In this document: piece after piece, positions 17,559 to 27,843 of the stretch
How the letters are laid out: each line of letters begins with the position of its first letter
Position numbering within the stretch: the stretch's first letter is position 1
IMG/VR virus record: IMGVR_UViG_3300048772_000284
Coordinates: 1-42,385 of that record
Length of the DNA stretch: 42,385 bases
From: a virus
Strand: one strand, 5' to 3'
The notes under the pieces: model-generated
Told to the model about the DNA's origin: nothing
Database searches by the model: none
The model's input: only the letters and a program-made list of their open reading frames with translations
Position numbers and translations under genes: made by a program

Positions 17559-19508
17559 ATGACCGATAAGCTCAGCATCAAATCCTTGGTGCGCGACACC
17601 AAACGCGAAGAAGCGCAATCCCGCAAGGCAATCACCAAGGACTCCTTCCAAAATTTCAGCGCCAAGCTGGGCATCGGCACCGACAATCTCTCCTCAACAT
17701 CTACCTACGGCTTCAACCCCATCACCCGAATACGCATCATGCTGGAGTGGATTCACCGCGGCTCCTGGCTAGGTGGCGTTGCGGTGGACGCTGTGGCCGA
17801 TGACATGACCCGCGCCGGTGTGAAGATTGAAAGCGAACTAGAGCCAGACCAGGTTGAGCGCATCGAAGAGGTCGCCACAGAGCTTCACGTATGGGACGAG
17901 ATCAGGGACAACATCGCATGGAGCCGCCTGTACGGCGGCTCTATTTGCGTCTTCCTCATCGAAGGGCAGAAGATGTCCACGCCACTGCGCGTCGAGACCG
18001 TGGGCAAGGGGCAGTTCAAGGGGTTGGTCACGCTTGACCGCTGGATGGTGGAACCCTCGCTGGGCGACCTGGTGACAGATTACGGCCCTAACCTGGGCAA
18101 GCCAAAATTCTACACCGTCAACGCCAACTCCCCCGCGCTCATCGGCGAGAAGATTCACTACTCTCGCGTGATTCGCATGGAGGGTGTGCGCCTGCCCTTC
18201 CAGCAGCGGATGACGGAAAACCTGTGGAGCATCTCGATCTACGAACGCATATACGACCGTATGGTGGCCTACGACTCAACCACCACGGGCATGGCGCAGT
18301 CAGTCTACAAGTCGTACCTGCGCACCGTGCGCATGAAGGACTTGCGCGAGAACATCGCTGCCGGGGGCAACCAGATGGATGGCGTTGTCCAGTATATGCA
18401 GATGATGGCCCGCTTCCAGTCTATCGAAGGCATTACCCTGCTCGACATCGAAGATGAGTTCCAAGAGGGCGGCGCGCAGAACTTCGCCGGCCTGCGCGAA
18501 GTTCTCATGTCCGTGGGCGAGCAGATCGGCGGCGGCATGGACCCCGCCATGCCGCTGGTTCGCCTCTTCGGTATGAGTCCAGCAGGGTTCTCCAGCGGCG
18601 ACGCTGATCTTCGGATGTGGTACGACTCTGTGAACAAAATGCAGAAGACCAGGCTCCAGGTGCCGGTCACTGCCATCTATCGCTGCATCGCGCAGAGCGA
18701 AGGCTACGAAGTGCCCGAGGGTTTCGCAATCGAGTTCGTTCCGTTGTGGCAGCTCACCGATGTAGAGAAGTCGCAGATCGCCAACACCGTCACAACATTC
18801 GTTTCACAAGCGCGAGAGCAGGGTGTAGTGAAGCCAGATCTTGCGCTCCAGGAGTTGAAGCAGAGTTCCAAGACCACGGGTTACTGGTCCAACATCACCA
18901 CCGACGATATAAAGGAAGCGGAGGAACAAGGCCCTCCGCAGCCTGCCAACGTCGAGACTGCTGAGGCTGGTCAAGGTGTTGCACCAGGGGAGAAAGCTCA
19001 ACCGGGCAAGGCTGCGCCGCAAAAAGCGAAAGCTCCCGGCGCGTCAAAGGACTCTGCTTCAACAGTTGCCGAGCTGCACCGCTTGTACGGGTTGCAGGTG
19101 GTCATCGAGAATATGGCCGGCACTATCCGCCGCGGCGTCGGGTGGGAGTCGCTCATGCCCGACGACTACGGATACATTCGTCGTCACGAGGGCGCTGATG
19201 GAGATGCTGTCGATTGCTTCGTGGGCAAAGACGCACGTGCTCTCAATGCCTACGTCATCGACCAGAGAGATTTACGAACGGGTCTATTTGACGAGCACAA
19301 GGCCATGCTTGGATTCAAGACAGCCGGTGATGCCGTTGAAACCTACCTGCTCGCCTATGACAGTGGAGACGGCGACCCCCAGCGCATCATGGCCTGCACT
19401 TCGATGACGGTGCCGGAGTTCCGGTTATGGCTGGAGTCGAGTGACAAGACTGTTCCCTGCATCGAGGGCGTGCGCGATGTTCCTGGCGTTGAGGCCATTG
19501 ACCTGTGA
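17559..19508 (+). CDS. Portal protein (DUF1073 type) fused to a pyrophosphatase-like domain
   Basis: The 649-residue protein has two parts. Residues ~30-440 are the portal of the DUF1073/phage_portal group: SWLGGVAVDAVADDMTRAGV, VRLPFQQRMTENLWSISIYE, LVRLFGMSPAGFSSGDADLR. It forms the dodecameric DNA entry ring. A Pro/Ala/Lys linker (~445-505) leads to residues ~512-640, which match the InPase-like domain found in polyvalent and head-associated phage proteins: ENMAGTIRRGVGWESLMPDD, YGYIRRHEGADGDAVDCFVG, then DEHKAMLGF. The acidic D-x-x-D and E/D cluster expected for metal binding is present (DYGYIRR, DGDAVD). Role of the domain on the portal is unknown. ATG 17559; ends in GTGA overlap. Confidence 0.9.
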   Translation: MTDKLSIKSLVRDTKREEAQSRKAITKDSFQNFSAKLGIGTDNLSSTSTYGFNPITRIRIMLEWIHRGSWLGGVAVDAVADDMTRAGVKIESELEPDQVERIEEVATELHVWDEIRDNIAWSRLYGGSICVFLIEGQKMSTPLRVETVGKGQFKGLVTLDRWMVEPSLGDLVTDYGPNLGKPKFYTVNANSPALIGEKIHYSRVIRMEGVRLPFQQRMTENLWSISIYERIYDRMVAYDSTTTGMAQSVYKSYLRTVRMKDLRENIAAGGNQMDGVVQYMQMMARFQSIEGITLLDIEDEFQEGGAQNFAGLREVLMSVGEQIGGGMDPAMPLVRLFGMSPAGFSSGDADLRMWYDSVNKMQKTRLQVPVTAIYRCIAQSEGYEVPEGFAIEFVPLWQLTDVEKSQIANTVTTFVSQAREQGVVKPDLALQELKQSSKTTGYWSNITTDDIKEAEEQGPPQPANVETAEAGQGVAPGEKAQPGKAAPQKAKAPGASKDSASTVAELHRLYGLQVVIENMAGTIRRGVGWESLMPDDYGYIRRHEGADGDAVDCFVGKDARALNAYVIDQRDLRTGLFDEHKAMLGFKTAGDAVETYLLAYDSGDGDPQRIMACTSMTVPEFRLWLESSDKTVPCIEGVRDVPGVEAIDL

Positions 19509-21196
19509 CCGACTACCCGCCAACTCGGTTCTGCTCCACCCGCGCTGCGCTTGCCAATGGGGTGACGCGGGACGCGCGTTTTGTGGAGCAGGAGCTGCCC
19601 CGCGTGCGCAAGAGCCTGCACGATAGGATGTTGGAGGCCAGAGACGAAGTAGGCATGGCCGAAGATTCTTTGTTTGACACACACGACAAGAAAGACGCCG
19701 AGGGCCGTGAGCACGTTCCCGCAGGCAGCAGTAAGGGTGGGCAGTTCGGCAAGGGTGCAGGCAGTTCGTTTTCTAAAGCGCCGATGGAAGCACGGAAGAA
19801 GGCTGTGCTGAATCAGATTGAAAGCAAAGGGTTCTCGGAGATTTCCGGCAACGCGGGAAAAGAACTGATCGCCGCAATGCGCGAAGATGGCTACAAAGTG
19901 GAGAGCGCGGGAAATGGTGTTGTTCGCGTGACCGCCAAAAAAGCAACCCCAGCCCCTCCATCGCAGCGCGCGGCTAAAGTCACCATGACCCCTGCGCAGA
20001 GCAAGAATAACATCGCGCAGCTTGAGAAGTTGTCGGGTGTTGTCGCTAAGAAAATGTCAGCCATCTACGAGCGAATGGAGGCGGCAAAGCCTAACAGCGC
20101 CGAGTACAAACAAGCAGTGCGTGAGTATGAGGCAGCAGGGCAAGAGCCAGGCGCTGAAGTAGGGTACGGGAACCCTGGTGCAAGCGAGGAGTCGCAGAAA
20201 AAAGCAATGGCGCGCGTTGCCGCGAAGGACAAAGAGCGCGGTTTTGATTGGGATAAGGACTGCCAGCGGTTTAACGTAATCGCTCCCGAAGACCGCAGTA
20301 CGTGGCCCGCGCACTGCCTTCGCATCCCAGCCAAAGCGAAAGGCCCAATCTATTTGGGAATCTATCCTGAGAGCGCTTTTTGGGGCTCGTACATGCCGTA
20401 TAACGGCGGCCCACGAAAACCGCTCTATAATCCAGCCTACAGAATAGAAGGTAACTCAGGTAAGTTGGCCCGTGGAAGAAGTCTGCGCAAAGATGAGAAG
20501 GCGATTGACGCTGCGCTTGAAAAGGCGAACGCTGATCCGAGCAGCATAGCGTTCATGTATGCTTCGGCAATGTGGGCTTTGGCTATTCGCAGCGGCGCAA
20601 AAGAAGGCAAGTCTGCGAATAAAGTTGACTACGAAACCGGCGAAGTAGAAGAGACGAACGAGCTGACCTTCGGTACGCTCACCATGCGCGGAAAACACAT
20701 TCGTGTGCGACAGGGCGGGGTGTACATCGCCATGCCGGGCAAGAAGGGCTCTGTCATTGATCTGCGTGTGCCTGACAAATTCGCAAAGGGATACTCAAAC
20801 AGTGATCCAAAACACCCCGGGCTTAAAGAGAAGGCCGGCTCTAATGGCAAGGTGTTCGGCGATCACATTTCATACAGCGCACTGCGCAAGTGGATGGACT
20901 CTGTGAAACTTGGCGAGGGTCGCGCCCTGGGAGACTACATTCCGCACGACGTGCGTATGCTGCGCGCAACGAACGAGGCCAAGCGCGTGATTGCGGGGAT
21001 GAAGCCGCCTGAAGGCTATGTGCAGTGGAAGATGCACTTCAAGGCAGTGAAGGCCGCGGTTGGCAAGGTGCTAACCGATACACCAGGCGCTTTTATGTCG
21101 TACATCGACCCTGGTGTATGGAAGCCTTGGGCGAAATGGCAGGACAAAAAGACAATGGAAAAGATTGCGAAGTTTTGGGGTGGAGACGATGAGTAG
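19505..21196 (+). CDS. Topoisomerase IB-like protein in head operon (563 aa)
   Basis: GTG 19505 overlaps the portal stop by GTGA. Residues ~70-90 (REHVPAGSSKGGQFGKGAGS) are a flexible glycine patch common in head-associated phage proteins. Residues ~270-545 follow the type IB topoisomerase layout: LRIPAKAKGPIYLGIYPESA and Y-containing strand, an active-site-like R362 in ALAIRSGA, FGTLTMRGKHIRV, K413/K414 in PGKKGSVIDL, H481-D-V-R484 in PHDVRMLRAT, and the Tyr533 in SYIDP. All residues expected of the R-K-R-H/N-Y set can be placed. It could relieve supercoils during packaging or ejection. Sequence divergence means activity is not certain. Confidence 0.82.
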   Translation: MTDYPPTRFCSTRAALANGVTRDARFVEQELPRVRKSLHDRMLEARDEVGMAEDSLFDTHDKKDAEGREHVPAGSSKGGQFGKGAGSSFSKAPMEARKKAVLNQIESKGFSEISGNAGKELIAAMREDGYKVESAGNGVVRVTAKKATPAPPSQRAAKVTMTPAQSKNNIAQLEKLSGVVAKKMSAIYERMEAAKPNSAEYKQAVREYEAAGQEPGAEVGYGNPGASEESQKKAMARVAAKDKERGFDWDKDCQRFNVIAPEDRSTWPAHCLRIPAKAKGPIYLGIYPESAFWGSYMPYNGGPRKPLYNPAYRIEGNSGKLARGRSLRKDEKAIDAALEKANADPSSIAFMYASAMWALAIRSGAKEGKSANKVDYETGEVEETNELTFGTLTMRGKHIRVRQGGVYIAMPGKKGSVIDLRVPDKFAKGYSNSDPKHPGLKEKAGSNGKVFGDHISYSALRKWMDSVKLGEGRALGDYIPHDVRMLRATNEAKRVIAGMKPPEGYVQWKMHFKAVKAAVGKVLTDTPGAFMSYIDPGVWKPWAKWQDKKTMEKIAKFWGGDDE

Positions 21197-21332
21197 TCCA
21201 ACAATGAAAGAAGCTGCCGAGTACGGGCGTACGCACGCCTTCGACCCTGATTTCGCGGAGCAACTGGAAGAAGACTGCGACAATGGCGGTCTTGATTTTG
21301 AAGACGACGACGAAGAGACAGACGAGGACTGA
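21189..21332 (+). CDS. Small acidic protein (47 aa)
   Basis: ATG 21189 overlaps the end of the topoisomerase-like gene by eight bases, with GGAG before it. Reads MSSPTMKEAAEYGRTHAFDP and then a strongly acidic tail (about 15 Asp/Glu in the last 25). Could be a DNA mimic or packaging/capsid clamp; no family recognised. Confidence 0.6.
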   Translation: MSSPTMKEAAEYGRTHAFDPDFAEQLEEDCDNGGLDFEDDDEETDED

Positions 21333-21334
21333 CC

Positions 21335-21601
21335 TTGGCAAAGCGCGGCGTGAAGAGCTACGAGGAGAGCACCACAGCCAAAGTGGTTCCATTCCGCGTC
21401 ATCGCTGCTCAGCTTCACACGTCGCCGCGCGTGGTGGAGCGTGAGTTCCACTCAGGCGTGAACAAACTGAAGGCCGTGCCAGGCGCGTTTGATGCCATGC
21501 TCACCCTGCTCCGCATCAAATCTGTTGAGCGGCGAATGGGCACACGATGCGGCTCGGTGGAGTGCAACCAGGATTTTATCAGGGAGAACGGAGGTCGCTG
21601 A
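21335..21601 (+). CDS. Small HTH protein, sigma-region-4-like (88 aa)
   Basis: TTG start at 21335, two bases after the previous stop, with GAGGA ahead. The segment FRVIAAQLHTSPRVVEREFH then SGVNKLKAVPGAF follows the pattern of a tri-helical HTH such as sigma70 region 4 (I-A-x-x-L-x-x-S-x-x-x-V-x-x-x-x-x-x-x-x-x-K-L). It has no other sigma domain. It may regulate late genes or bind DNA in the packaging complex. Unusual place, inside the head operon. Confidence 0.6.
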   Translation: MAKRGVKSYEESTTAKVVPFRVIAAQLHTSPRVVEREFHSGVNKLKAVPGAFDAMLTLLRIKSVERRMGTRCGSVECNQDFIRENGGR

Positions 21602-22041
21602 CGCTCTACACAGACGAAGCAGGACTTGATTTTATCGCAGCCAATGAAGGGCTGGTGCTAACCATTAGCAACGACAACGGACACCCTGTCATCGGCCACG
21701 GCCACGACCTCACTCATCAAGAGATTGCCGGCGGTATATACGCCAACGGAATCACCACACTCCAAGCACAACTGATTCTTGAGCGTGACTGTCGCGAGTG
21801 GGATGCTGCGATCAACGCTCTCAACTGGCCCTTGAACCAGAATCAACATAACGCCCTCTGCGACTTTACACACAACCTGGGAGTGGGCAAGTTGCAACGG
21901 CTCGCGGCGCATGGACAAGAGCAGGTGTGTGTTCAGCTGCCGCGCTGGGTGTATGAGAAGCAGAACGGTGTTGAGGTGGTGAGCAAGGGGCTCGTCGCGC
22001 GACGCGCAAAGGATGTAACGCTGTATCAGACTCCATGCTGA
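21547..22041 (+). CDS. Endolysin, T4-lysozyme-like GH24 (164 aa)
   Basis: Peptidoglycan-degrading muramidase. The active-site region is ANEGLVLTISNDNGHPVIGH then GHDLT: Glu and Asp (E-x8-D) match the T4 lysozyme E11-D20 pair, but the residue aligned with catalytic-like Thr26 is Val. The remainder (QAQLILERDCREWDAAINAL, NQNQHNALCDFTHNLGVGKL) fits the C-terminal GH24 helices. No signal peptide, so it needs a holin, which is not seen. The true start is unclear: ATG 21547 overlaps the previous gene by 55 bases and GTG 21562 is an alternative. Its place between head genes may point to a virion-associated form. Confidence 0.8.
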   Translation: MRLGGVQPGFYQGERRSLTLYTDEAGLDFIAANEGLVLTISNDNGHPVIGHGHDLTHQEIAGGIYANGITTLQAQLILERDCREWDAAINALNWPLNQNQHNALCDFTHNLGVGKLQRLAAHGQEQVCVQLPRWVYEKQNGVEVVSKGLVARRAKDVTLYQTPC

Positions 22042-23825
22042 AAACCGAAGACGCCAAGCCGGTGAAGCCCACGCCACAGCAACTACGCAAGCTGGGGCGT
22101 GAACGGTTTATCCGCGCACGCCGCGCCGGCTCCGCCTTTCAGCGTCAGCTCTCCAAGCTGGGCAACCACATCGGCGCGCTTGTAAAGAAGCACGCTCCTG
22201 GTGGCGTGGTTTCTGACTGGCGCGCTTTGCGCAAGGCGCTCAACGATTACGCCGCGCAAATTCGCCCCTGGGCAGAGTCCATCACAGAAAGCCTGCACAC
22301 CGAAGTCGCGCAACGCGATGCACAGGCGTGGTTCCAGGCTGGCCGCGAGATAGGGCAACACCTACGCGAAGAGATTGCCTCCGCGCCCACAGGCAAGATG
22401 ATGAAGTCGCTGCTCGCGGAGCAGGTAGACCTAATCACATCGCTGCCCACTGAGGCGGCAGAGCGTGTGCACAAGCTCACTCTGCAGCGCATCGCCCAGG
22501 GGCGCAGGCCGGAGTCCTTGGCTCAGGAGATTCTGAAGACCGGCGAAGTGACCGTCGCGCGCGCCCGTATGATCGCGCGCACCGAGACTGCACGCACAGC
22601 AGCGGCGCTCACTGAGGTTCGCGCAAAGCACATCGGCAGTGAAGGATACCTGTGGCGCACTGCAAATGACAGCGACGTTCGTCCCGCAATCGGCACACCA
22701 GGATTTTCGCAGCTCAACACCCTTGCGATGGGAAGCCATCGAAAACTTGAAGGTACTTTTCACCGTTGGGACGAGCCGCCTATCGCAGCGCCCACTGGCG
22801 AGCACGCACACCCAGGAAGCATATGGAACTGCCGCTGTTTTTCGTCTGATACGCTTGTGACTAAAGTCACAGGAATTGAAAAGTTATATCGGTCGTACTA
22901 CCGAGGTGATCTTTGCCGCGTTACAATTGGAGACGCCGAGTTTACAGCGACACCGAATCACCCGATGCTCACGCAACGTGGTTGGGTGCATGTATGCGAA
23001 CTCCAAGACAGCGATTACCTCGTTCAGGTGCTCCGTGATCCACACATCTTCGTCGAAGCCAACGTAGATAGTTTTCACGCCACATTTGGCGAGTTGTTTG
23101 GATCGTTGCCTGGACGCGTGGATGTGGCACCGGGAATTTTGTTTGATCTCTATGGCCGTGTTCCCGATGGCGATGTCCACACAAAGATCATCAATCAACT
23201 TCTGACGTGTGACAACGTAGCCAAGAGTCTCAAGCGCAGTGGCAATTTCACACTCGCCAAACCCAACAGCGGGGTTGAAGGTGCCATTTGTGGCGGCGGT
23301 GCGCATGTTGCTGAAACGTCGAGAGCGTGCAGCAGCGACGCGCTTCTTTCGCCGTTCCAAAGTCATTCTCCCCATGCTGATTTCGTTGGCACTGCTGACG
23401 CCTCTTCGAGTGATGCCGGCCTCATTGAGTCGCTGAGTGATGGTCCAACGATTGACGTGGTAGAGCGCAGCGAGTTCGAGTTCGCTAATTCCAGAAAGGT
23501 ACTTGGCGACGATCTTTTCAGCGGGGAGGTTTTTGCGCCCGTTGCCATGACCGACCGCAGGCGCCCAATGTTTGACGACGCCACCAGCAGCACGAATCGC
23601 TTTGCTGAGATTGTCCGGGCTAACTTTGAGCAAGGCCGCAACGTCTTTAAGACGGGTGCCGGCATCTATGCGCTGCTTCCCTTCAGAAACGACTTCATTC
23701 GTAAGTTTCCGTTTTCGGGCCATGTTTACACGCTCCAAACTGACGTTGGTTGGTATGGGGTATCAGCTATGTCTATTATAGCACAAAACTGTTGGGCAGA
23801 GCCAGTTTTACCGGATCGTATTTGA
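22035..23825 (+). CDS. MuF-type head morphogenesis protein interrupted by an intein
   Basis: SPP1 gp7/Mu F-type minor head protein that binds the portal. ATG 22035 overlaps the lysozyme stop by seven bases. Extein residues 1-267 show the family text: LAQEILKTGEVTVARARMIA then RTETARTAAALTEVRA, SEGYLWRTANDSDVRP, and the conserved HPGSIWNCRC. The family motif should continue CWAEP; instead residues 268-585 are an intein, after which CWAEPVLPDRI ends the frame. The spliced protein would be 278 residues, the usual size for MuF. Without splicing the NCRC-W motif is broken, so splicing is expected to be needed. Confidence 0.92.
   Translation: MLKTEDAKPVKPTPQQLRKLGRERFIRARRAGSAFQRQLSKLGNHIGALVKKHAPGGVVSDWRALRKALNDYAAQIRPWAESITESLHTEVAQRDAQAWFQAGREIGQHLREEIASAPTGKMMKSLLAEQVDLITSLPTEAAERVHKLTLQRIAQGRRPESLAQEILKTGEVTVARARMIARTETARTAAALTEVRAKHIGSEGYLWRTANDSDVRPAIGTPGFSQLNTLAMGSHRKLEGTFHRWDEPPIAAPTGEHAHPGSIWNCRCFSSDTLVTKVTGIEKLYRSYYRGDLCRVTIGDAEFTATPNHPMLTQRGWVHVCELQDSDYLVQVLRDPHIFVEANVDSFHATFGELFGSLPGRVDVAPGILFDLYGRVPDGDVHTKIINQLLTCDNVAKSLKRSGNFTLAKPNSGVEGAICGGGAHVAETSRACSSDALLSPFQSHSPHADFVGTADASSSDAGLIESLSDGPTIDVVERSEFEFANSRKVLGDDLFSGEVFAPVAMTDRRRPMFDDATSSTNRFAEIVRANFEQGRNVFKTGAGIYALLPFRNDFIRKFPFSGHVYTLQTDVGWYGVSAMSIIAQNCWAEPVLPDRI
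22884..23723 (-). CDS. Homing-endonuclease-like gene encoded antisense within the intein
   Basis: A 279-residue protein, ATG 23723 behind GGAG. It has two HTH motifs (residues ~24-46, TRLKDVAALLKVSPDNLSKA; ~80-104, ELELAALYHVNRWTITQRLN), a linker ISMGRMTLERRKKRVAAARS, and a Vsr-like PD-(D/E)xK nuclease core at ~154-240: GFGECEIATALETLGYVV, D183, E192-x-K194 in AIEIK, H200 and H202, then GVKTIYVGFDEDVW. These are features of phage homing endonucleases of the Vsr/EDxHD-like group. Its codons are in register with the sense intein codons. The last ~40 residues lie over the intein N-block and look less protein-like. Own extended -10 promoter at 23775-23783. It would cut intein-free MuF alleles to spread the intein. 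Confidence 0.85.
   Translation of the reverse strand: MARKRKLTNEVVSEGKQRIDAGTRLKDVAALLKVSPDNLSKAIRAAGGVVKHWAPAVGHGNGRKNLPAEKIVAKYLSGISELELAALYHVNRWTITQRLNEAGITRRGVSSANEISMGRMTLERRKKRVAAARSRRFSNMRTAATNGTFNPAVGFGECEIATALETLGYVVTRQKLIDDLCVDIAIGNTAIEIKQNSRCHIHASRQRSKQLAKCGVKTIYVGFDEDVWITEHLNEVIAVLEFAYMHPTTLREHRVIRCRCKLGVSNCNAAKITSVVRPI
23775..23783 (-). promoter_or_regulatory. Extended -10 promoter for the antisense endonuclease
   Basis: Minus strand TGC-TATAAT (23783-23775): perfect -10 with TG extension. A good -35 is not present (weak GGCTCT at the right distance). The same bases encode S-I-I-A of intein block G on the plus strand. Predicted leader is about 45 bases to ATG 23723. Confidence 0.65.
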
Positions 23826-23923
23826 GGGTTAGGTGCTGCCGGACAGAATATAGGTCCGCCGTGGTATCGTGAAAAATGAAGTGAAACCTGTGCTGGCGAG
23901 CCCAGCGCAACAAGGGAGAAAAT

Positions 23924-24727
23924 ATGAACAGTCGCATCTTTCGAGTTCTGACAGCGGCGCTCGTGGCGCTTGGGCTTGCGAGCTTCGCTTCAGCGCAGTA
24001 CACTCCCGGCGCGCAGCCGGTTGTGTACCCCACGTACCAGCCCGCCGCGTCAGCGTTCACGGCCGCCAGTCAGACTGGCACCGCCTTTACCAGCTCAGGG
24101 CTTCGTAGCGCGGTGATTGTGGCCGTGCAGAACGGGCCAACCCCCGCCGCACTGACCGGAGTTGTTTCGGGCACCACCACATCGGTTGAGACCTGGACGC
24201 TCGCAGGCACCGCAGACACTTTCGGCGGCACCATCAATGTCACGCCCTCAACGAAATCGTTATGTTCGATTACCATTCCTCCGTACACAACGCTGGCTGC
24301 GGCGGCCACCCTTTTCAACGCCAACACCACGTGCTTCACCACCGATGGGCTTACAGCAACTACAGGCTCCGGGACGTTCATTCTCACGCAGGGCGGTGTC
24401 AGCCTAACCATCACCGATAACGGCAGCACGCTGGTGGACTACAAGGCATCCACTGCAACGTGGAATCTGCAAGGCAGTATCGACGGTGTGAACTGGTTCT
24501 CCGTGCCGACCGCCGCCCTGCCCACCACATCGGTGCCGATTACAACCACCGCCATTACGCAGGCCACGGCCACCACCACACAGACGGCGGCAACGATGGG
24601 GTACGCTTACGTCGCAAATGTGGCCGGTTGGAATCATTTCAGGCTCAGCACCACGTCGGCTACGTTCACGGCAACCTCTACACTTTCGCTCGCGTTCTCC
24701 GGTTCGCCGCTTCAGTCTTTCTTTTAA
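23924..24727 (+). CDS. Secreted Thr-rich protein with signal peptide (267 aa)
   Basis: ATG 23924 behind GGGAG. Residues 1-25 are a Sec signal peptide (RIFRVLTAALVALGLASFAS then A-Q cleavage). The mature part is Thr/Ala/Ser-rich and beta-like. Residues ~88-168 (WTLAGTADTFGGTINV..., TTLAAAATLFNANTTCFTTD, GSGTFILTQGGVSLTITDN) resemble a segment of the tail sheath at 31166. The C-terminal ~100 residues with STATWNLQGSIDGVNWFSVP look like a galactose-binding/beta-sandwich seen in secreted phage proteins. Unusual between a head morphogenesis gene and the protease/scaffold gene. Function unknown; a decoration or host-surface protein is possible. Confidence 0.75.
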   Translation: MNSRIFRVLTAALVALGLASFASAQYTPGAQPVVYPTYQPAASAFTAASQTGTAFTSSGLRSAVIVAVQNGPTPAALTGVVSGTTTSVETWTLAGTADTFGGTINVTPSTKSLCSITIPPYTTLAAAATLFNANTTCFTTDGLTATTGSGTFILTQGGVSLTITDNGSTLVDYKASTATWNLQGSIDGVNWFSVPTAALPTTSVPITTTAITQATATTTQTAATMGYAYVANVAGWNHFRLSTTSATFTATSTLSLAFSGSPLQSFF

Positions 24728-24736
24728 GGAGCTTCC

Positions 24737-26134
24737 GTGGAAGCCACAGCATTTCGTGTAAGCGAGAAGATCGGGCCAAACATGGCGTGGACAGATGAGC
24801 GGTTTCTCGTCTGCTACGGCGTGCCGATTGCTCGCACCGGAGTGCTGATCTACGGAGCCGGCGAACGCCCCGAGGTGCAGCCTGGGCCTGACGGCCTCAT
24901 TCGCATCGAGCGACTGGACGAGGATGTGTTTGCAGAGGAGAGTCTCAAGAGCCTGCAAATCAAGCCGCTGCTCAACGAGCATCCCGCGTTCGACGTGAAC
25001 CCTGAGAACTATCAAGAGCTAACAGTGGGGTCCGTTGTCAACCCTCGTCGCGGAGAGGGCATCTTCGATGATTGCATCATTGCCGATGTAGTGGTAATGG
25101 ATCGGCAGGCTATTGAGGATGTGCTCAGTGATAAGCGTGAGGTAAGTTGTGGGTACGACTGCAAGTATTTTGACCTGGGCGAAGGCCGAGGGCGGCAGAC
25201 CAACATCATTTACAACCACGTGGCGCTGGTAGAAAGTGGTCGCTGTGGCCCACGTTGCAGCATCAAGGACCACGCCATGCGAAAGGAAACAACGATGAAG
25301 ACGAACAGAGTGCGTCCGTGGTTGGACAAGCTGCGCTCGCTGGGCAGCGCCATTACACAGGACAAGAAGGCCACCTTTGACGAGGCTGTCGAGGAGGCGG
25401 AGCGCGAAGCCAAAACCAAGGATGCCGAGGAAGAGGCCGAAGAGCGCGAGAAGAACAAAACCAAGGACGACGACCTGTCGAAGCGCATGGAGGAGCTGGA
25501 GGCCAAGCACGAGGAGCATGGCAAGCAGCTCGAAACCCACGACGCCAAGCTGAAGACCCACGACTCTGACATCGCCGAGCTGAAGGACAAGATCGGTGAA
25601 GGCGACAAAACAGCCGACGCCGAAGAGGACAAGGAGATCGAGGGTGAGCTGAAAGAAGAAGCTCCTCCGGGCAGTGGCGACAGCGCCATGAAAGCCAAGG
25701 ACTCGGCGTACCTCGCTCCGACCTGGCAGAGCACCAAAGCTCTGGCCGAGATCCTCGTTCCCGGCATTCACATGCCCACCTTCGACAGCAAGGGTGACCC
25801 GAAGATCACATACAAGGGCATCTGCGACTTCCGGCGCCGGGCGTTGAGCATGGGTCTGCTGACCGCGGACACCAACCAGGTCATCGCCGAAGTTCGCGGT
25901 GGCCGCACCTTGGACTCCAAGGACATCGCAGCCATGAAGTGCGGCGAAGTTCGTCAACTGTTCTACGCGGCCGGCGCGGCCAAGAAAGCAGCCAACACCA
26001 GCGACGCGCACTCCGCAGGGCACTTCACCAATCTCGAAGGTTCAGGCGGCGGAGTTGGCGTTACCAGCAAGCTGAAGACGCCCGCCGACATCAACGAGGA
26101 AAACCGCAGGCGGTACGCCGCTGGCGACAAGTAG
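24737..26134 (+). CDS. DUF2213-type head maturation protease/scaffold fusion (465 aa)
   Basis: GTG 24737 behind AAGGAG. Residues ~1-190 match DUF2213, the prohead protease-like domain of phages with DUF2184-type capsids: LNEHPAFDVNPENYQELTVG, DDCIIADVVVMDRQAIEDVL, KREVSCGYDCKYFD and NHVALVESGRCG with His and Ser in protease-like positions. Residues ~200-310 are a very acidic/basic coiled coil (KDAEEEAEEREKNKTKDDDL), as in scaffold cores. Residues ~330-465 form another domain ending TPADINEENRRRYAAGDK. It would act as scaffold and cleave itself during capsid maturation. Confidence 0.85.
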   Translation: MEATAFRVSEKIGPNMAWTDERFLVCYGVPIARTGVLIYGAGERPEVQPGPDGLIRIERLDEDVFAEESLKSLQIKPLLNEHPAFDVNPENYQELTVGSVVNPRRGEGIFDDCIIADVVVMDRQAIEDVLSDKREVSCGYDCKYFDLGEGRGRQTNIIYNHVALVESGRCGPRCSIKDHAMRKETTMKTNRVRPWLDKLRSLGSAITQDKKATFDEAVEEAEREAKTKDAEEEAEEREKNKTKDDDLSKRMEELEAKHEEHGKQLETHDAKLKTHDSDIAELKDKIGEGDKTADAEEDKEIEGELKEEAPPGSGDSAMKAKDSAYLAPTWQSTKALAEILVPGIHMPTFDSKGDPKITYKGICDFRRRALSMGLLTADTNQVIAEVRGGRTLDSKDIAAMKCGEVRQLFYAAGAAKKAANTSDAHSAGHFTNLEGSGGGVGVTSKLKTPADINEENRRRYAAGDK

Positions 26135-26148
26135 GAAGGGAGCCACAG

Positions 26149-26760
26149 ATGTTTCGACTCATTCGCAATTTGTTTCACAAGACACGTGAGGTGGGGTCGT
26201 ATGTGGGCACTTTCCGTACCCATGACGCCGCGTTCGCGTTTCGCATGAATACAGGCTTTCCGGGCACTGTGAATCGCACACACCCGGCAAGCATCGAGCC
26301 TTGCCTCATCGACCCTAACGCCACCATCGCTGCTTACGGGATGGGTGTGATTGTGGACTCGGCGACGCAGGGCGTTCGCACACTCGTCGCTGGCGACGGT
26401 GCTGTGACCAACCTTTACGGAATCGCCGCGCGCCCCTATCCGGTGCAGGCAGCCTCCGCGTCAAGCTACGGAGCCACCACATTCGGCTCCGGCGCGCCGC
26501 CCCCAAGCCAGCCTCTCGACGTTCTCAAGGGCGGCTACATTCTGGTCGCGCTCAACAACTTCGCCGTGAACAACTCGGTCAAGAACGGCCCAGTGTACGT
26601 CAACATCAGCACCAGCACAACCAACCACGTGCAGGGTGGCTTCGAGGCCGCAGCGAACTCGGGCTGCACCACCATCGAGATCACCAACGCGTATTCACAA
26701 AACTACTTCAACGGTCCTGCCGGTCCCGATGGTGTCGTTGAACTCGCGTTCAACCTGTAG
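26149..26760 (+). CDS. Head decoration/cement-like structural protein (203 aa)
   Basis: ATG 26149 with GGAAGGGAG upstream. No signal peptide. The sequence is beta-rich with TVNRTHPASIEPCLID, PNATIAAYGMGVIVDSATQG and VLKGGYILVALNNFAVNNSV, a layout typical of head cement/decoration proteins placed just before the major capsid gene in phages of this type. Identification is by position and general character. Confidence 0.7.
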   Translation: MFRLIRNLFHKTREVGSYVGTFRTHDAAFAFRMNTGFPGTVNRTHPASIEPCLIDPNATIAAYGMGVIVDSATQGVRTLVAGDGAVTNLYGIAARPYPVQAASASSYGATTFGSGAPPPSQPLDVLKGGYILVALNNFAVNNSVKNGPVYVNISTSTTNHVQGGFEAAANSGCTTIEITNAYSQNYFNGPAGPDGVVELAFNL

Positions 26761-26775
26761 GAGAGGGAGTCTTTC

Positions 26776-27843
26776 ATGTTGACATTCGATAACAGCCACC
26801 AGACGCAGGATTCGCAAGGCAACCAGCTCGGCGTGAGGCTTCCGCACGCTTGCACAACCCATGACGGGCGCACCGTGGACTCCACGGGCGCTTTCATGGT
26901 TGGTGAGTTGGAGCGTTTGGATCAGAAACTCCACGAACCGTTGGTATCGGTTACGTGGGGTCGTGACATCGACTTGCGCGAGGATGTAACCATCGCGGAC
27001 GAGGTGTCGTCATTCACCATCAGCACCTATGGCTCAGCCGGCTCGCTCGGCGCTGGAAACAGCATCGGCAACGGCAAGGCGTGGGTAGGCAAGACCACCA
27101 ACCAGATCGGTGGCGTCGATCTGGACATCGCCAAGACCACGCATCCGCTGCTCCCCTGGGCGCTCGAACTCAAGTACACCATCATGGAGCTTGAGTCGGC
27201 GGCCAAGATGGGCCGCCCCATCGACCAGCAGAAATTCCAGGCGCTCCAACAGAAACATCAGATGGACATTGACGAGCAGGTGTACATCGGTGACACGTCG
27301 ATCAACGCTACGGGACTAATCAACAGCACTGCGGTTACGCCGCAGAACGTGGTGAAGAGTCCGGTGTCAGGTTCGACTTTGTGGGCGCAGAAGTCTCCAG
27401 ACGAAATTCTGCTTGACTTCAACACCGCGCTTACTACCGTGTGGGCGGCTTCGGCCTGGGCTGTGCTGCCCAGCCGGGCGCTGATTCCTCCGGCGCAGTT
27501 CGGTCTGCTCTCGACGCAGAAGGTGTCTCAGGCTGGCAACATATCGACGCTGAAGTACATTCAGGAGAACAACGTCCTGACAGCATCGGGGCAGGGCAAG
27601 CTGGACATCTTCCCGTTGAAGTGGTGCATCGGCGCCGGCCAGGGTGGCACGCTCGGAACCATTGGCGTTGACCGTATGGTGGTCTACACCAAGGACCAGG
27701 AGCGAGTTCGCTTCCCCATGACCATGTTGCAACGCACCCCGGTGCAGTACGACGGGCTTTACCACAAGACGACTTACTTCTGCCGCTTGGGGCAGGTGGA
27801 GGTTGTCTACGGGGTTACATTGGGGTATTTTGACCAGATCTAA
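26776..27843 (+). CDS. Major capsid protein, DUF2184 type (355 aa)
   Basis: ATG 26776 behind AGGAGAGGG. Features of DUF2184 capsids: LVSVTWGRDIDLREDVTIAD, DEVSSFTISTYGSAGS, GKTTNQIGGVDLDIAKTTHP, WALELKYTIMELESAAKMGR, DEQVYIGDTSINATGLIN, and C-terminal DRMVVYTKDQERVRFPMTML. The HK97 fold is inferred from family. Followed by a strong stem-loop. Expected to be the most abundant virion protein. Confidence 0.93.
   Translation: MLTFDNSHQTQDSQGNQLGVRLPHACTTHDGRTVDSTGAFMVGELERLDQKLHEPLVSVTWGRDIDLREDVTIADEVSSFTISTYGSAGSLGAGNSIGNGKAWVGKTTNQIGGVDLDIAKTTHPLLPWALELKYTIMELESAAKMGRPIDQQKFQALQQKHQMDIDEQVYIGDTSINATGLINSTAVTPQNVVKSPVSGSTLWAQKSPDEILLDFNTALTTVWAASAWAVLPSRALIPPAQFGLLSTQKVSQAGNISTLKYIQENNVLTASGQGKLDIFPLKWCIGAGQGGTLGTIGVDRMVVYTKDQERVRFPMTMLQRTPVQYDGLYHKTTYFCRLGQVEVVYGVTLGYFDQI

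Follow-up and report, generated by a model that had tools for sequence, protein, structure and literature searches.

A phage MuF intein whose antisense strand carries a predicted homing endonuclease gene in codon register

Introduction

Where does a phage intein keep its homing endonuclease when the polypeptide that splices seems to hold none? To our knowledge, all known mobile inteins join the nuclease and the splicing domain in one chain, so that the two have to fold together and are produced only along with the host protein. The window analysed here, a virus record of 42.4 kb taken as a whole, raises this question with an insert in its gene for the head-morphogenesis protein MuF. An earlier note, made from the letters alone, had proposed that this insert is an intein and that the missing nuclease is encoded on its antisense strand. 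We examined this proposal using relatives from cultured phages and virus contigs, domain searches, structure prediction, and strand-specific comparisons of codons and substitutions.

Results

The MuF intein and the gene on its opposite strand

The MuF ORF (22035-23825, plus strand), which was recognized by Pfam, is interrupted by an insert that begins with C1 (TGT at 22836), ends with N318 (AAC ending at 23789), is followed by C+1, and contains splicing blocks A, B, F, and G (Table 1). The window copy thus has a nucleophilic C1, the TxxH of block B, and a terminal Asn followed by Cys. It has no penultimate His in block G, where it carries Gln-Asn; many relatives have His-Asn, and the copies at insertion site 1 have Gly-Asn. 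A penultimate His is frequent in inteins and no strict requirement. The Pfam family Intein_splicing (PF14890) matched the ORFs of 47 of 57 relatives, with the window copy scoring below threshold. By homology, we infer that the insert with its four blocks is a self-splicing intein. No endonuclease was found by Pfam in the sense frame of the window MuF ORF, nor was there a sense-strand copy of the nuclease, as expected of a classical in-frame endonuclease, at any of 80 related loci (the best 80 of 541 matches, see below). An ORF at 21547-22041 overlaps the MuF start and resembles a phage lysozyme by eye. Positions 18836-27822 of the window are identical over 8987 nt to the IMG/VR contig 3300037449_000119 (64,281 bp), which is therefore a longer record of this virus.

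The opposite strand of the intein carries a complete open frame in the same register. As MuF codons start and antisense codons end at coordinates divisible by three, position 1 of the sense codons is position 3 of the antisense codons and the reverse. Antisense stops correspond to the sense codons TTA, CTA, and TCA; conversely, MuF would be terminated by any of these three if they occurred as codons of the antisense gene. The antisense gene has a predicted promoter and translation start of its own opposite the host gene. The block F His codon, which supplies the antisense ATG, was CAT in 66 of 82 copies, with 31 expected from synonymous shuffles; for comparison, the block B His was CAC in 90 of 103. 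Among the 82 inteins, a Shine-Dalgarno match of at least 5 occurred in 54%, versus 23% of synonymous shuffles, and a -10 score of at least 6 in 43%, versus 6%; in some members, such as L014 and L018, no -10 element was seen. At the other end, the antisense stop falls at intein codon 2 in 51 of 115 copies, and the gene is thereby confined to the mobile segment.

The earlier note had read from the letters a MuF intein with blocks A, B, F, and G and no sense endonuclease, a complete antisense gene of 279 codons, and a Shine-Dalgarno sequence and promoter for it. All of this held up, the first by alignment to relatives and Pfam, the second by 116 relatives, and the third by the enrichment over synonymous shuffles.

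Table 1. Features of the MuF locus, in window coordinates
Feature	Position	Strand	Basis
N-extein, MuF head-morphogenesis protein	22035..22835	+	C-terminus GSIWNCR; Pfam Phage_Mu_F E=1.5e-12; PHROG 324 E=2.6e-50
Predicted intein, 318 aa, C1 to N318	22836..23789	+	Homologous blocks A, B, F, G across 116 distinct inteins
Splicing block A, CFSSDTLV	22836..22859	+	Alignment to relatives; C1 invariant
Splicing block B, TPNH (T39-H42)	22950..22961	+	T, P, N, H invariant across the block alignment
Splicing block F, GHVYTL	23718..23735	+	Alignment; CAT His codon doubles as antisense start codon
Splicing block G, IIAQN, then C+1	23775..23789	+	Alignment; antisense -10 box within block G codons
C-extein CWAEPVLPDRI and stop	23790..23825	+	Matches the NCRC(x)A(x)P-like end of MuF in relatives
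Predicted antisense homing-endonuclease gene, 279 aa, ATG to TAA	22884..23723	-	In codon register with the intein; homologues among relatives
Putative extended -10 promoter element TGCTATAAT	23775..23783	-	Inside block G codons; score compared with synonymous shuffles
Putative Shine-Dalgarno GGAG of the antisense gene	23733..23736	-	Complementarity in 82 inteins exceeds that of synonymous shuffles
First HTH unit, residues 9-45	23589..23699	-	AlphaFold2 model, pLDDT >90; HTH families among relatives
Second HTH unit, residues 68-101	23421..23522	-	AlphaFold2 model; PDB profile match 2lvs spanning both HTH units
Predicted PD-(D/E)XK (Vsr/EDxHD-like) nuclease domain, residues 157-245	22989..23255	-	3hrl and 3r3p profile matches; Foldseek
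Catalytic-site candidate E157	23253..23255	-	At least 90% conserved in 68 relatives; invariant in 15
Catalytic-site candidate D183	23175..23177	-	Invariant in 68 diverse relatives
Catalytic-site candidate E192	23148..23150	-	Invariant in 68 diverse relatives

Distribution of the two-strand layout

A tblastn search with the antisense protein returned 25 phage records, and most of the matches lay opposite a gene annotated as a head or MuF-like protein. Among them were the Edwardsiella phage MSW-3, Klebsiella phages of the Jedunavirus type, Vibrio PvVp04_M, Idiomarinaceae 1N2-2, Gordonia phages (Vividuovirus), Salmonella L223, and Pantoea AH01. In the phage record regions examined, the antisense gene was unannotated, except for free-standing copies in Acinetobacter phages. 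As the nuclease alignment A1 was too diverse for pattern scans, the closer subsets A2 and A3 were used; the scans with the two subsets found 21 and 44 virus contigs, and in nearly all of these, splicing blocks surround the nuclease on the opposite strand.

Relatives were also collected in the reverse direction, by splicing block B alone, which gave 541 matches in one virus collection. Scored with a nuclease profile that leaves out the overlap with the splicing blocks, 79 of the best 80 of these 541 carry the antisense nuclease in the identical register, and the contig of the lone exception, L129, ends 255 nt into the intein. The shortest intein in the set (L151, 2501-3214; 237 aa) has a broken or decayed antisense frame and likely represents a step towards nuclease loss. 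The nuclease of L021 had been taken as broken on the basis of fragmented profile matches, which was rejected, as its antisense frame is open over 286 codons.

A first scan of genome contigs gave zero matches, and a second one found the element in bacterial records, namely in Pseudomonas sivasensis P7 and in one Arcobacter MAG. In total, 116 distinct complete inteins of 237-377 aa and 33-70% GC were obtained from cultured phages and virus contigs. The two-strand layout is a widespread, unannotated class that is not confined to this virus.

The antisense protein resembles PD-(D/E)XK nucleases

Single-sequence Pfam and PDB searches with the window nuclease gave nothing useful, with no Pfam threshold reached, and domain matches were obtained only once the nuclease family was assembled. 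REase_MTES_1575 was matched by 29 of 68 family members, and DUF559 and HTH families were matched as well. Profile searches further matched the endonuclease-like protein of PDB entry 3hrl (E=1.2e-5) and PDB entry 3r3p (E=0.009). The match to phrog_664, a 'DNA binding protein', was restricted to the HTH region and leaves the function undecided.

The AlphaFold2 model based on 68 sequences, which superseded a weak earlier model (pLDDT 69), has a mean pLDDT of 82, with values >90 across most of the folded part. It contains a pair of HTH units and a nuclease domain of alpha/beta fold. The best Foldseek match of this domain was 3r3p, the catalytic domain of the homing endonuclease I-Bth0305I, with a probability of 1.00, a target TM of 0.66-0.68, and a modest E-value of 1.3e-3. 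Confidence is low in the C-terminal 28 residues, which for the most part overlap the sense block A-B stretch, as expected if the sense strand dictates that stretch.

With respect to the catalytic site, the nuclease core of D183 and E192-x-K194 named in the earlier note was correct in part. D183 and E192 are invariant in 68 relatives, but the lysine of the ExK motif is not conserved; K194 occurs in the window copy and L004, and relatives mostly have W, T, or F. The conserved set is E157, D183, and E192. A residue tally at D183 and E192 that was conditional on the residues searched for was left out of the invariance evidence. With regard to the EDxHD residue set, no conserved His/Asp was found beyond D183, and D183 itself is aligned with an Ala of the PDB chain. 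The sense-strand sequence FHGDG was considered as a motif of its own and rejected as a shadow of the antisense AVE core. From these matches and the model, the antisense protein is predicted to be a PD-(D/E)XK nuclease of the MTES_1575/DUF559/EDxHD group with the core E...D...E. The database similarity of the antisense protein on which the proposal depended was thus found, and the two HTH motifs noted before are seen in the model, in the HTH families of relatives, and in the 2lvs match.

Insertion sites and traces of mobility

The inteins occupy several insertion sites in MuF, chiefly the ARTE motif and the NCRC motif. The window copy lies two codons deeper in NCRC, and inteins at site 1 are located in the middle of MuF. 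Extra MuF sites lie after DDRTA, ESDEA, and LIAR in L120, L149, and L034, respectively. L007 (2036-4894), L133, and L169 have both common kinds of intein, at two sites of one MuF ORF, with an antisense nuclease in each. In L021 (1608-3014; Virus Rctr197k), the intein is located in a dCMP deaminase gene, between PCVA and C, and not in MuF. GenBank names this protein 'putative head morphogenesis protein', which is probably due to similarity to intein-containing head proteins (compare phrog_15127).

Alleles with and without the intein coexist among close relatives: MuF is intein-less in Klebsiella P5026 and Salmonella SF5, and the intein is present in their relatives KpTDp1 and BPS11Q3. The antisense gene thus has the homing-enzyme trait of lying within a mobile element for which empty alleles exist. 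In a quick nuclease tree with many weak branches, the insertion site (ARTE-type copies) changed 3 times, versus 27.5 times in shuffles, and as two rows scored as site 2 by +1 residue are really at ARTE, the true clustering by site is tighter.

The Acinetobacter Obolenskvirus phages P1068 (L023, 2390-3280) and IME285 (L012, 455-1345) have a free-standing nuclease relative that converges on an intein-less MuF. The MuF genes of P1068 and phage AB2 (L176) are near-identical over 500 nt and differ in the last ~220 nt, followed by the nuclease gene and then by 99.9% identity; upstream MuF and the downstream region, which flank the divergent stretch, are 98-100% identical. This pattern fits the expected trace of intronless homing beside the target gene. 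The recurrence of the element in phages might alternatively stem from ordinary recombination together with long-term vertical inheritance. A second nuclease relative that has no intein opposite to it (L055, 2995-3675) lies antisense between other genes.

A real antisense gene need not encode a homing enzyme, as a regulator or a nuclease that excludes competitor phages could be lodged in the intein. The two HTH domains and the free-standing relatives L023 and L055 would suit such a function, and phage homing enzymes can serve marker exclusion too, as in the T4 and SPO1 systems. However, the presence and absence of the intein among close relatives, the tracking of insertion sites by nuclease clades, and the confinement of the gene to the intein, over 97% of which the frame is open and at codon 2 of which it often stops, all fit homing, and we therefore regard a regulator or exclusion nuclease as unlikely.

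Selection on the two strands

Sense codons that correspond to antisense stops are avoided in one region only. Among Leu and Ser codons, TTA, CTA, and TCA reach 11.2% in the exteins (756/6758) and 12.1% within the splicing blocks (185/1529), whereas the intein middle has 0.05% (2/4296). In the AT-rich L140, they make up 29 of 56 Leu/Ser codons of the extein and 0 of 53 of those in the middle. At the median, a fraction of 0.97 of the intein is open in the in-register antisense frame; the other two antisense frames reach 0.31 and 0.23, and the in-register frame of the neighbouring extein reaches 0.64. Given extein codon usage, the open frame of the window copy alone is moderately unlikely (P ~0.004), and the log10 P summed over 116 relatives, with kin counted at full weight, is -295. 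Rather than having stops throughout, homologous inteins thus keep the antisense frame open, in agreement with the best 80 block B relatives.

Substitutions were compared in 10 disjoint pairs of relatives. At the two splicing ends, sense positions 1/3 differed 94/166 and 50/91 times, and in the intein middle 706/429 times (Fisher P = 1e-19); all ten pairs lean the same way. Protein identity at the ends was higher for the sense protein (0.84 and 0.82) than for the antisense protein (0.72 and 0.67), and in the middle it was higher for the antisense protein (0.74 versus 0.61). This shift of changes from position 3 at the ends to position 1 in the middle indicates that selection acts on the sense protein at the ends and on the antisense protein in the middle, where the sense frame is essentially an open linker. 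The mutual codon-by-codon constraint postulated in the earlier note thus applies with regard to the shared register, but the constraint itself is mostly partitioned, with the sense strand ruling the splicing blocks and the antisense strand the region between them. Codon usage, substitution position, and expression signals are three independent tests, and all of them argue that the antisense gene is real.

It was in principle possible that splicing has been lost and that the sense frame is just kept open, which would reduce the element to a nuclease gene near the MuF 3' end. The C-extein of some members, including the window copy, indeed has just ~10-20 residues, and the window copy has no penultimate His. 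However, selection on the sense strand of the splicing blocks (144/257 differences at positions 1/3), sense frames that are open with a length divisible by three in all relatives except the frameshifted L081, and site-1 inteins that split MuF in its middle make a loss of splicing highly improbable. The antisense frame might also be a mere by-product of in-register codon usage. GC-rich genes frequently leave this frame open, as in the upstream exteins, and the open frame of the window copy alone is just moderately unlikely. However, the stop-complement codons vanish solely between the splicing blocks, even in AT-rich copies, and the regional flip of substitutions, the invariant catalytic-site candidates, and the free-standing homologue all speak against a by-product, to which we give practically no credence.

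Discussion

The window locus is very probably a mobile intein with an antisense homing endonuclease gene that is expressed independently, and splicing, cutting, and homing are the predicted activities. This reading is supported by two separately selected frames, independent initiation signals, the nuclease fold, and the allele polymorphism, all of which are deduced from sequence. MuF would be made with the intein inside, and blocks A, B, F, and G would excise it and restore MuF, judging from homology. The extended -10 element in the block G codons and the ribosome site and ATG in the block F codons would drive separate synthesis of the nuclease, which probably binds and cuts the intein-less MuF gene of co-infecting phages at the NCRC codons, as here, or at the ARTE codons in others. 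Repair from the intein-plus copy would then insert the intein and the nuclease gene together. The host-type promoters suggest that the nuclease may be produced early, ahead of the late gene MuF. Owing to the Gln before the terminal Asn and to the nuclease being under Pfam thresholds, the window copy is possibly weakened in either function.

Beyond this virus, we consider it likely that the relatives form a class of mobile inteins in which splicing and homing are carried out by two proteins from opposite strands in the same register, with block F and G codons doubling as start, ribosome site, and promoter, and the nuclease uncoupled in time and amount.

The endonuclease of inteins has been described as a domain nested within the splicing chain (PMC8966425). 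Classical mobile inteins, such as that of VMA, share with the present ones the HINT splicing blocks, an endonuclease within the intein, conserved sites, and alleles with and without the intein, but their endonuclease is part of the splicing polypeptide (PMC8966425) and is not encoded by an in-register antisense gene of its own. Antisense homing genes are known from nuclear group I introns, namely I-DsqI and Dir.S956-2 (PMC9548176). As proposed here, these lie opposite the host gene and are independently expressed; however, they encode His-Cys enzymes of self-splicing RNA introns in eukaryotic rDNA (PMC9548176). There, no protein has to be encoded by the host strand, whereas in the present layout each of the two strands specifies a protein. 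I-Bth0305I, of the EDxHD (Vsr-like) type, has the same nuclease fold and an aligned E...AxE core; it is a mobile intron protein according to the PDB, whereas the present protein is antisense within an intein and has two N-terminal HTH units. Free-standing phage homing endonucleases that act by intronless homing are matched by the P1068 relative beside its replaced MuF 3' end, but unlike them, most members of the present family are nested in inteins.

Inteins in capsid-morphogenesis genes of Guernseyvirinae, e.g., of Snoke, as well as intein-plus and intein-less phages of this group, are already noted in the available portions of three reports (PMC6776784; PMC11162368, PMC8425127). They belong to the same intein family and occupy the same insertion site as here, and the antisense gene goes unmentioned in those portions (PMC6776784, PMC11162368, PMC8425127). 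It was annotated in none of the intein-bearing Guernseyvirinae records examined. An intein with an antisense endonuclease was not found in the open-access literature, and an earlier report elsewhere is possible. As far as can be told from that literature, mobile inteins are known and the opposite-strand nuclease layout is apparently undescribed.

In this layout, the nuclease and the splicing domain share DNA but not protein, and the homing gene could be expressed early despite a late host gene. It explains the apparent absence of an endonuclease from large phage MuF inteins, adds a family of nucleases that has two or more target sites in a conserved phage gene, and provides a large natural collection of protein pairs with complete overlap, in which selection on each strand can be followed column by column. 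It also illustrates that antisense genes can go unnoticed in well-studied phages.
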